Source: Phycisphaerales bacterium (GTDB lineage: Bacteria; Planctomycetota; Phycisphaerae; Phycisphaerales; UBA1924). Taken from it: a DNA stretch of 64,000 nucleotides. Numbering within the stretch: position 1 is the stretch's first letter; every line of letters starts with the position of its first letter. A model generated the notes under the pieces. That model was not told the DNA's origin. It worked only from the letters and a program-made list of their open reading frames with translations, and did no database searches. The position numbers and the translations under genes were made by a program. Below are positions 29,989 through 57,610 of the stretch, one piece after another. The stretch spans positions 1 through 64,000 of the forward strand of contig JAEPOJ010000009.1 in the NCBI GenBank assembly GCA_017642965.1, written 5' to 3'.

Positions 29989-30528
29989 ATGCATAGCACA
30001 GAAGCGCACGACAAGCTCAACGCCCTGATCGAAGAGGTCCCCGACTTTCCCAAGGCGGGCGTGGTGTTCAAGGATTTCACCCCATTGCTCGCGGATCCCG
30101 GTGCCCTCGCGCTCGCGGTCGAGCTCATGGCCAACCCGTACCGCGGCAAGGGTATCGATCTGGTAGTCGGTGCTGAGAGCCGGGGATTCATCTTCGGCAT
30201 CGCGATCGCCCAGGCCCTCTCCGCGGGGTTCGTGCCCGTACGCAAACCGGGCAAGCTGCCGCGCATGGTCCACGGGGTCGACTACGACCTGGAGTACGGG
30301 ACCGACCGTCTCGAACTGCACACCGACGCGCTCATGCGAGGACACAGGGTCCTGCTCGTGGATGACCTGTTGGCCACAGGGGGAACGATGAAGGCGAGTT
30401 GCGAACTCGTTCAGAAGACCGGCGCCGAGATCGCCGGGATCACGGTCCTCATCGAGCTCAACTTCCTGCACGGGCGCGAGAAACTCTCGGGCCTCGGGGA
30501 GGTCCACTCCGTGCTCAAGTACGACTGA
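29989..30528 (+). CDS. apt: Adenine phosphoribosyltransferase
   Basis: Salvages adenine to AMP using PRPP. The 179-residue protein has FPKAGVVFKDFTPLL at the N-terminus, GAESRGFIFG, VRKPGKLP and the PRPP-binding loop VLLVDDLLATGGT. Length is typical. The start is set by the adjacent -10-like box, discarding a 39-codon open extension with no homology. Confidence 0.93.
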   Translation: MHSTEAHDKLNALIEEVPDFPKAGVVFKDFTPLLADPGALALAVELMANPYRGKGIDLVVGAESRGFIFGIAIAQALSAGFVPVRKPGKLPRMVHGVDYDLEYGTDRLELHTDALMRGHRVLLVDDLLATGGTMKASCELVQKTGAEIAGITVLIELNFLHGREKLSGLGEVHSVLKYD

Positions 30529-45466: not shown

Positions 45467-45877
45467 TCAAAGGCGTCGCAACCGGACCACCCGACGAGCC
45501 GCGATCGAGTCCACATCAACCCCGCATTCCGGGCAGATAGTGGGGCGGGGCAACCGCTCGACATCGTACCCGCAGAACGAGCAGTGCCCGCTCGGTGTGA
45601 CGGCGCGGGGGTGCTGCTCAAGGATCGCGTCCCAGATCGAGCGGATCGAGTCCTGCGCGATCCGCCACTCCAGCTCGTTCTGCGTCTCGATGAGAATCAG
45701 GAACCGCGGTGGCTTGGCGCCTTCGATCTGGGAATGAGGCGTTTTCTCCTCATTCTCCACCTCGACCGCCTTCACCCCACGCAGAGATAGCCCGTAGAGG
45801 ATCTGGGCCACATCATCGCGAGTATCGGCGCTGGTGATGATGCGATCTTTGTACGGGCTCGGGTCTGTCTTGCGCAC
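45467..45877 (-). CDS. Small zinc-ribbon protein
   Basis: 136 residues, not a named family. The N-terminal half (TRDDVAQILYGLSLRGVKAV) looks like an alpha/beta domain. The C-terminus has a two-knuckle ribbon CSFCGYDVERLPRPTICPEC, common in planctomycete proteins. GTG 45877 is chosen because a TATCCT -10-like box ends 5 nt upstream; the open frame extends to a TTG at 45895. Divergent from rsmH through a symmetric promoter. Confidence 0.65.
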   Translation of the reverse strand: MRKTDPSPYKDRIITSADTRDDVAQILYGLSLRGVKAVEVENEEKTPHSQIEGAKPPRFLILIETQNELEWRIAQDSIRSIWDAILEQHPRAVTPSGHCSFCGYDVERLPRPTICPECGVDVDSIAARRVVRLRRL

Positions 45878-45880
45878 CCC

Positions 45881-45913
45881 TGAGGATAGCGACAACCCGC
45901 CCGTCTATCCTCA
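45881..45913. promoter_or_regulatory. Symmetric divergent promoter: perfect 9-bp inverted repeat
   Basis: TGAGGATAG (45881-45889) and CTATCCTCA (45905-45913) are exact complements 15 bp apart. Each arm holds a TATCCT hexamer. The + strand copy ends 6 nt before the rsmH ATG (45918), the - strand copy 5 nt before the GTG at 45877. Each -10 sits at the -35 distance (17-nt spacing) of the other. Confidence 0.6.
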
Positions 45914-45917
45914 CCCC

Positions 45918-46862
45918 ATGGGCGACGAACTCACCCACATCCCGGTCCTACCCAGCGAGGTCATCGAGCTGCTCGATCCCCAGCCGGGGCAGGTGTATGT
46001 CGACTGCACCGCCGGTCTGGGGGGGCACGCATGCATGGTCGCCGAGCACCTCGGGCCCGAGGGCACGATCGTTCTCAACGACATGGACCAAGGGAATCTT
46101 GATCTTGCTAAGGCCAGCGTTGCCAGCACCTTGCGTCCGGATGACCCCGGCTCGGCGAGGGTCCACGCGATCCGAGGAAACTTCTCCGAGCTGCCCAGGG
46201 CCTTGGGCGAGCTTGGGCTCCAAGCGGACATGGTTCTTGCGGATCTGGGGTTCGCAAGCACGCAGGTCGACGACCCGGAGCGGGGGCTGAGCTTCCGTTT
46301 CTCGGGCCCCCTCGACATGCGGCTCGACCCCTCCATGCCGATCACCGCCGAGGAACTGGTCAACACCCTCCCGGAACGGGAGCTGGCCCAGATCATCTTC
46401 CGGTACGGCGAGGACAAATCCGCGAGAAGGATCGCGTCAAAACTTGTTGCTGCTCGGGAGGTTGAGCCGATTACAACGACTGATCGGCTTGCCGAGATCG
46501 TGCGTTCGGCGATCCCCGGCCCGCGCGGCAGTATCAATCCAGCGACGAAGACCTTCCAGGCACTTCGCATCGCGGTCAACGACGAACTGGGCAGCCTTGA
46601 CGCGCTGCTCCGATCGATCGGGATCGCGCTCAAGAAGAACCGAGGGGGCAATCCGAGCTGGATCGCTCCTGGCGCTCGTGTAGGGATCATCGCGTTCCAC
46701 TCGCTCGAGGACCGCCCCGTCAAACGGGCAGTTGGCGAATGGACAAGCAACGACTGGGGCGAGTCGATCACACGCAAGCCGATCGAGGCCACAGACGCCG
46801 AGATCGCGAGCAACCCGCGGGCACGCTCGGCCAAGCTCCGCGGGATCAGGGCGAGTCAATGA
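45918..46862 (+). CDS. rsmH: 16S rRNA m4C1402 methyltransferase RsmH
   Basis: 314 residues. SAM-binding YVDCTAGLGGHACM, LADLGFASTQVDDPERGLSF, RIASKLVAAR and the C-terminal GARVGIIAFHSLEDRPVKRA are signatures. Normal length. The start follows the -10-like TATCCT with no ribosome site. It heads the remnant division and cell-wall cluster (LysM, FtsL-like, FtsI), as mraW does in the dcw clusters of many bacteria. Confidence 0.94.
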   Translation: MGDELTHIPVLPSEVIELLDPQPGQVYVDCTAGLGGHACMVAEHLGPEGTIVLNDMDQGNLDLAKASVASTLRPDDPGSARVHAIRGNFSELPRALGELGLQADMVLADLGFASTQVDDPERGLSFRFSGPLDMRLDPSMPITAEELVNTLPERELAQIIFRYGEDKSARRIASKLVAAREVEPITTTDRLAEIVRSAIPGPRGSINPATKTFQALRIAVNDELGSLDALLRSIGIALKKNRGGNPSWIAPGARVGIIAFHSLEDRPVKRAVGEWTSNDWGESITRKPIEATDAEIASNPRARSAKLRGIRASQ

Positions 46863-56449: not shown

Positions 56450-56530
56450 CGTGGTTCGTTCCCTGCGTGATCCCGCGCAAACGGGGAGAATTGCGTCTCT
56501 TCCTTGGTTTCTGAGTGTACGCGTGGACGA

Positions 56531-56536
56531 TATCGT
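56531..56536 (+). promoter_or_regulatory. -10-like hexamer TATCGT before the TPR protein
   Basis: TATCGT ends 6 nt before ATG 56543; no ribosome site. Confidence 0.45.
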
Positions 56537-56542
56537 GTGCAT

Positions 56543-57610
56543 ATGCCTCACCCCCCAAAGACCCAGAAACCATGCAATCCGTACCCCTCACGCCGCGGCA
56601 GCGCCCGGATCACCGGCGTGGTGCTGGGCATACTCGCGCTCGCCGGGCTCGGGGTCGCGGGCTATGCCGTCTGGTCAATCCTTCAGAGCCCATCGCCCAC
56701 GCCCGAACAGGCGGACCCGAACAGCACGGGTGACCCCGGCACGGGCATGGCCCAGACCGAGTCGATCGAGGAGATCCTGGGCGCGGTGCAGGTCTACGTC
56801 CGCGAAGAGGACTTCGCATCGGCTCAGCGCGTCCTCGAAGAAGCCGTCGTGAGCTACCCGACCGATCAGGAGCTGCGCTACGCGCTGGGCGACCTGTACC
56901 TGCTGACCAACCAGACCGGCATGGCCTACGAGCAGTACCTCGCGGGCATCGAGATCGGGCCCGAGTCGTGGAACGCGCACTTCACGGCCGGGACCATCGC
57001 CAACACGCTCGATCGCCCCGAGATCGCGGAGGTGCACTACGCGGCCGCGATGCGCCTGGACCCCAACAACGCCGAGACGCCGCTATACCTCGCGGCCATC
57101 CAGCAAAAGCTCAACCGGCTGGAGGAAGCCAAGGCGAACCTGGCGATCGCCGGACGGCTCAATCCGACGGACGCCCGCATATACGCGATGCGGGCCGAGA
57201 TCGCGCTGCGTGAGAACAAGGCCACGATCGCGTTGGAGCAGGTCCGCCGCGCCCGTGAGATCGAACCCAACGCGCTGGGGCTGATCCTGATGGAGGCCAG
57301 AGCGCTCAAACGGCTCCGCGAGACGCAGGAAGCGATCGACCTGCTCACAGCTCTCCCGATGGAGCAGGCCAGCACGCCCGACGCCGTCAAGCTTCTCGCC
57401 GAGTGCCTGGGGGCTGTTGGGCGATTCGACGATGCGGCCTCGCGCATGATGGACGCGGCTGAGCGCCAGCCGGGCAACGCGGAACTGCGGTTCGAGGCCG
57501 CCCTCTGGCTTCAGCGTGCCGGGCGGATCGATGAGGCGAGGGATTGGGCGCAGCAGGCCGCCGACCTGGGCGATGCCCGCGCCAGGGAATGGCTCGACTC
57601 ACTGCCGTGA
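56543..57610 (+). CDS. Membrane-anchored TPR protein
   Basis: 355 residues. Arg-rich start, one transmembrane helix (GVVLGILALAGLGVAGYAVW) and a poly-linker (SPSPTPEQADP) are followed by about eight TPR-like helical repeats (for example LGDLYLLTNQTGMAYEQYLA and AGTIANTLDRPEIAEVHYAA). Probably a periplasm-facing scaffold; no enzyme motif. The start follows a -10-like hexamer and is divergent from valS. Confidence 0.75.
   Translation: MPHPPKTQKPCNPYPSRRGSARITGVVLGILALAGLGVAGYAVWSILQSPSPTPEQADPNSTGDPGTGMAQTESIEEILGAVQVYVREEDFASAQRVLEEAVVSYPTDQELRYALGDLYLLTNQTGMAYEQYLAGIEIGPESWNAHFTAGTIANTLDRPEIAEVHYAAAMRLDPNNAETPLYLAAIQQKLNRLEEAKANLAIAGRLNPTDARIYAMRAEIALRENKATIALEQVRRAREIEPNALGLILMEARALKRLRETQEAIDLLTALPMEQASTPDAVKLLAECLGAVGRFDDAASRMMDAAERQPGNAELRFEAALWLQRAGRIDEARDWAQQAADLGDARAREWLDSLP

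Follow-up and report, generated by a model that had tools for sequence, protein, structure and literature searches.

The closest described counterpart of the promoter pair analyzed here is found on the Bacillus subtilis plasmid pLS20 (PMC4207663), where the starts of the divergent promoters Pc and Pr were both mapped, the spacer is 17 bp, and the Pr boxes that the authors favour are said to 'correspond exactly' to the boxes of its divergent partner. According to that paper, each start lies 6 bp past either its own core or the box of the opposite promoter, which by our own addition sets the two starts ~41 bp apart, and the polymerase is treated as a part of the switch. The pair of promoters between rsmH and a small zinc-ribbon gene shares with pLS20 the reciprocal coincidence of the -10 and -35 positions, the 17-bp spacer, and the predicted room for only one polymerase. 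It differs in that both genes appear leaderless, the -35 elements are weak, and the -10 elements are identical, whereas pLS20, as described in that paper, has a long leader (Pc lies 461 bp before gene 28), recognizable -35 elements, promoters of very unequal strength, and a dedicated regulator, Rco. Thus, the reciprocal overlapping arrangement is already known, and the rsmH pair is a further, compact and well-conserved example of it.

A second class is that of the Warman/Grainger bidirectional promoters, in which, according to PMC12825309 and PMC10268837, the polymerase can bind symmetric DNA in either of two orientations but not in both at once, as is predicted for the rsmH pair. These promoters were defined by Warman et al. 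by divergent starts 7-25 bp apart and by shared -10 bases (PMC10268837), while the predicted starts of the rsmH pair are 40-41 bp apart in one clade of the genus (clade A, below) and 29-30 bp apart in the other nine genomes, with separate -10s; the rsmH locus therefore falls outside the definition. In tests of five such promoters of E. coli, basal activity did not suffice for competition, which required that one direction be activated (PMC12825309). As for leaderless genes, one survey (PMC5397173) reports the leaderless/RPS1 nucleotide bias for its single planctomycete; as in the genes described there, TANNNT lies 5-6 nt from both start codons of the rsmH pair and there is no space for a Shine-Dalgarno sequence, but here two such genes lie in one 40-bp intergenic region. 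The open literature on leaderless planctomycetes, divergent, overlapping or bidirectional promoters, rsmH or mraZ in planctomycetes, and the mapping of transcription starts in this group, represented mostly by titles and the openings of abstracts, contained nothing on the rsmH locus. Leaderless genes with the -10 element just before the start codon have examples in Deinococcus and in actinobacteria.

The rsmH intergenic region and its two genes

The window analyzed here is a stretch of 64,000 nucleotides from the MAG of an uncultured Phycisphaerales bacterium (contig JAEPOJ010000009.1, positions 1 to 64,000), and the features of interest are collected in Table 1. The initial annotation had described a perfect 9-bp inverted repeat with a 15-bp spacer, placing a TATCCT hexamer 6 nt before rsmH on one strand and 5 nt before a small zinc-ribbon gene on the other, and reading of the sequence bore this out: the arms, TGAGGATAG and CTATCCTCA, are 9 bp each, 100% complementary and 15 bp apart, and both distances were correct. 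On the plus strand, TATCCT is followed by CACCCC and the ATG of rsmH at 45918, and on the minus strand by CAGGG and the GTG of the zinc-ribbon gene at 45877; the gap between the two hexamers is 17 bp.

Table 1. Features of the rsmH/zinc-ribbon intergenic region and the flanking genes (window coordinates).
Feature	Position	Strand	Remarks
136-aa zinc-ribbon protein gene	45467-45877	-	Predicted leaderless, GTG start
Inverted repeat, left arm TGAGGATAG	45881-45889		9/9 columns invariant in 10/10 clade-A genomes
Predicted -10 (TATCCT) of zinc-ribbon gene	45883-45888	-	5 nt 5' of GTG; coincides with the -35 place of the plus-strand -10
Inverted-repeat spacer, 15 bp	45890-45904		Length fixed, letters vary; invariant columns are 45894 and 45903
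Inverted repeat, right arm CTATCCTCA	45905-45913		Clade A: CTATCCT in 10/10, next C in 9/10, last position variable
Predicted -10 (TATCCT) of rsmH	45906-45911	+	6 nt 5' of ATG
rsmH, 16S rRNA C1402 N4-methyltransferase	45918-46862	+	Predicted leaderless, ATG start

The product of rsmH matches PF01795 (1.1e-82) and TIGR00006 (257.8 bits; cut-off 154.3) and is 89% identical to RsmH of the nearest named genomes, which are Phycisphaerales MAGs (UBA1910); the gene is the head of a division-gene stretch. The 136-aa protein is predicted to consist of a ferredoxin-like N-terminal part and a C-terminal zinc ribbon, the former label being drawn from the order of secondary structure elements and from weak matches. 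Its structure model had a mean pLDDT of 78, a fold search with this model returned no match at E <= 0.001, and family searches of the sequence found no DNA-binding family. Among 41 genomes searched, the full-length protein was found only in its own genus, and elsewhere the matches covered the zinc ribbon only.

By itself, the inverted repeat is unremarkable, since 40 complementary 9-mer pairs separated by 0-40 bp were counted in the window, where first-order Markov sequences give 22 +/- 5, and three of the 40 have a 15-bp gap. Such abundance would suit a chance repeat, or an RNA hairpin or terminator, with no role of its own, but the position and spacing are kept in 10 genomes, and this conservation refutes chance as a full account. 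Moreover, a scan of the intergenic site found no terminator, and the repeat, lying between the two predicted start sites, would be part of neither RNA, which argues against a hairpin; this explanation is left with next to no probability. Three things go beyond chance: the repeat is placed between two start codons, TANNNT is enriched genome-wide at that very distance from starts, and relatives conserve the repeat exactly. In the 3.45-Mb genome, the inverted repeat is single-copy.

The leaderless signal in the genome

A count over 464 kb of the genome placed TANNNT 4, 5, 6, 7 and 8 nt before 468 candidate ATGs in 6, 17, 32, 6 and 7 cases, respectively, compared with about 2 at each of the other positions, and the hexamer was also over-represented 4-6 nt before GTG. 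This strong over-representation 4-8 nt before starts indicates that leaderless genes are common in the genome; in 848 kb, the hexamer occurs at leaderless distance in 88 of 726 called genes. A set of 72 candidate leaderless sites showed little conservation beyond the hexamer. TATCCT itself is a common leaderless hexamer, found at 8 of these 72 sites and at 5 of 81 sites in a set without the rsmH locus. Upstream of these 81 other -10s, the likeness to TTGACA peaks at a spacing of 17 bp (z 3.5, the best among 28 spacings tested, with the rsmH locus left out), and since 17 bp gives the highest likeness genome-wide, weak -35 elements at the usual place are likely. The 8-mer CTATCCTC was also considered as a general leaderless signature and was rejected, as the genome has only 4 sites where it precedes an ATG by 2-5 nt and the control has 2.

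Close divergent starts of this type are not confined to rsmH. In 848 kb, leaderless-like starts that diverge at close range and are each followed by an open frame occur at six distinct sites, rsmH included, with gaps of -2 to 22, whereas the reversed control gave none with open frames but had more raw matches (27 vs 13); the raw geometric matches are thus not enriched over the control. By the route of gene calls, 3 of 106 divergent pairs qualified, with gaps of 7, 17 and 84 bp. Taken together, the six open-frame sites and the three gene pairs signify that the divergent leaderless architecture recurs in the genome, and among such pairs only that of rsmH has identical hexamers. Close pairs of leaderless type with unlike arms were noted at L073:11393-11429 (gap 7), L142:19165-19208 (13) and L072:4208-4258 (22 bp).

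Conservation of the pair within the genus

Of the 21 genomes of the genus, our own included, 19 yielded an rsmH gene; two genomes (G011 and G020), in which rsmH had no match, are absent from all counts. In all 19, the zinc-ribbon gene divergently adjoins rsmH, and TANNNT is located 5-6 nt before both start codons. The divergent leaderless promoters proposed in the initial annotation are predictions that gain support from these 19/19 loci as well as from the genome-wide TANNNT peak. The feature common to the genus is a predicted overlapping divergent promoter pair, as judged from the sequences.

The perfect mirror, on the other hand, is restricted to ten genomes, here named clade A, that form one side of a branch of the RsmH tree (support 95/93). 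In all ten, both hexamers are TATCCT and stand exactly 17 bp apart, and nine of the genomes have exact 8-bp arms, one base of one arm being changed in the tenth (G016). In the other nine congeners, the gap is 5 bp (eight genomes) or 6 bp (G010), and the two hexamers are never identical. Conservation of the repeat in relatives, a check set beforehand, was therefore found in 10 of 19 loci, counting the one with the changed arm base, while that of the promoter pair was found in 19 of 19. As the two hexamers differ from each other in these nine congeners and are 5-6 bp apart, the perfect mirror is best seen as a derived state of one clade. In the tree, G010 branches just outside clade A, and the second main branch of the genus is made up of the remaining eight; these positions make an ancestral short gap the simplest inference, with one gain of 11-12 bp giving rise to the 17-bp gap.

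Within clade A, the constancy of the gap stands in contrast to its surroundings. The spacers comprise eight distinct versions in ten genomes, with a mean identity of 0.47, and yet all are 15 nt long; the distance from TATCCT to the rsmH start is 5 or 6 nt, and the interval from rsmH to the next gene varies from 43 to 95 nt. One of the invariant spacer letters, the A at 45894 (10/10), corresponds to a minus-strand T at roughly -18 in the zinc-ribbon promoter, a position that is said in PMC10268837 to aid polymerase binding.

All 7 syntenic orthologs preserved both CTATCCTC 8-mers, whereas in six other leaderless-like genes of the window the 8-mer was kept in at most two orthologs (0-2), some of these genes having few orthologs. 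The leaderless promoter of the gene at 29989 kept its hexamer in 6/6 orthologs and its 8-mer in 1/6, and that of the gene at 56543 in 5/6 and 3/6, respectively. It is to be noted that this control is small, consisting of eight leaderless-like window genes, two of which are the rsmH/zinc-ribbon pair, plus a few more, and that genes were called by a simple codon score, which on G012 gave a poor result of 11 genes in 60 kb. As two other window promoters keep their hexamers nearly as well, the rsmH pair is best regarded as among the best conserved, at the top of the normal range. Before the gene at 56543, the plus strand at 56513-56542 carries a leaderless-type promoter, CGATATCGT, with an upstream TGTACGCG block, both nearly unchanged in 6/6 clade orthologs. 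In 11 more distant loci of the family or order, TANNNT was found 6-7 nt ahead of a candidate rsmH start in eight, some upstream starts being ambiguous; a full-length homologue of the zinc-ribbon protein was not seen next to rsmH in any of these 11, which were therefore left out of the pair counts.

The conservation data bear on the simplest alternative, namely that two independent leaderless promoters happen to lie close together and use the same common -10 variant, the symmetry and the 17-bp gap having no function of their own. The frequency of TATCCT among leaderless hexamers (8/72; 5/81) is in its favour, as are the other close divergent leaderless pairs, which in 848 kb have gaps of -2, 7, 13, 21 and 22 and unlike arms, and the lack of symmetry in 9 of the 19 congeners. 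Against it, the 17 bp are kept in 10/10 genomes in spite of varying spacer letters and nearby indels, and both 8-mers are kept more strictly than those of the other leaderless promoters examined. We regard it as a minority possibility, but one to be taken seriously.

A second alternative makes the repeat an operator, at which a symmetric, dimeric regulator would contact both arms and control the two genes; a symmetric regulator had also been suggested in the initial annotation. A perfect 9-bp dyad with almost unchanged arms and fixed spacing in the ten clade-A genomes is what such an operator would look like. However, each of the seven genomes searched holds a single copy of the repeat and none at 1-2 mismatches, the hexamers differ from each other in 9 of 19 congeners, and the neighbouring small protein has no match to a DNA-binding family; the suggestion is not supported, and we consider an operator of this kind improbable. 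A global regulator was rejected on the same search, in which only the rsmH copy was found below 3 mismatches. At up to 3 mismatches, the number of copies was weakly and unevenly above the reversed control (5 vs 4 in our own genome, 5 vs 10 in G012, and 8 vs 2 in G018). A purely local autoregulator with a private operator at the repeat may act here instead, though with low probability.

The third candidate regulator is MraZ. In other bacteria, mraZ is the usual neighbour of rsmH, and MraZ is the usual regulator beside it, controlling mraZ-rsmH operons; a mraZ gene is indeed present in this genome. However, it is located on contig C11 and not beside rsmH, it has TGGG repeats of its own, 10 nt apart, and on reading the sequence no such tandem repeats were seen at the rsmH site. 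That the site is an MraZ operator is thus very improbable. The TGGG repeats, which lie ~10 nt apart directly upstream of mraZ (L132:990-1025, contig C11 of G000), look like the gene's own operator, and we take them to resemble MraZ boxes.

A predicted shared polymerase site

The reading that we favour, with a probability of roughly 0.7, is that rsmH (plus strand) and the zinc-ribbon gene (minus strand) are transcribed as leaderless mRNAs from two overlapping divergent promoters of sigma-70 type that form one shared polymerase site. From the sequence, the positions, their conservation and the leaderless signal genome-wide, we infer the start sites, the mutual exclusion of polymerases and the dual role of the hexamers. 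Each transcript would begin at or beside its start codon, ~7 nt (rsmH) or ~6 nt (zinc ribbon) past the last base of TATCCT. The outward-facing start sites would then be ~41 bp apart, and a polymerase bound in one orientation would cover the opposite promoter, so that both genes would share a single polymerase-binding site. Such one-at-a-time occupancy is drawn from ordinary polymerase footprints. The earlier proposal that two polymerases could not bind at once gains support from this predicted geometry.

In clade A, the 17-bp gap would further set each -10 at the -35 place of its partner, and the same hexamer would probably be read twice, as -10 in one direction and as a weak -35 in the other. 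Viewed from the opposite strand, TATCCT is AGGATA, which matches TTGACA at 3 of 6 positions and is thus a weak likeness of a -35; a consensus scan of the site, too, found no full sigma-70 promoter, which speaks against this reading. The proposition that each -10 sits at the -35 distance of the other holds true at 17 bp, in the window and in 10/10 clade-A genomes. This pLS20-type reciprocal geometry is not found in the other nine congeners, where the gap is 5-6 bp, and it is therefore not needed for the pair to persist.

A more specific version of the shared-site reading would be a regulator-free two-way promoter: ~12 bp would have been gained once between older divergent -10s, both of which then came to be the same hexamer, each serving as -10 one way and as -35 the other, with the polymerase dividing its time between rsmH and the zinc-ribbon gene, both translated from leaderless mRNAs. 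We put this forward tentatively, and rather doubt it than expect it. As to the consequence of sharing, mild coupling or damping of noise is as likely as a switch through polymerase competition. The built-in switch that the initial annotation had considered is not adopted here, mainly because the E. coli bidirectional promoters were too weak at the basal level for polymerases to compete (PMC12825309).

On the conservative reading alone, the locus would neatly illustrate how a genome is compacted in a leaderless lineage. Should the dual-role reading be true, it would represent a conserved bidirectional promoter of very small size, directly followed by a start codon in both directions, and the gaps of 5, 6 and 17 bp within one genus would offer natural material on the relationship between spacing and polymerase competition. 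In the latter case, transcription of an rRNA methyltransferase gene would also be tied to that of a small protein of no assigned role.
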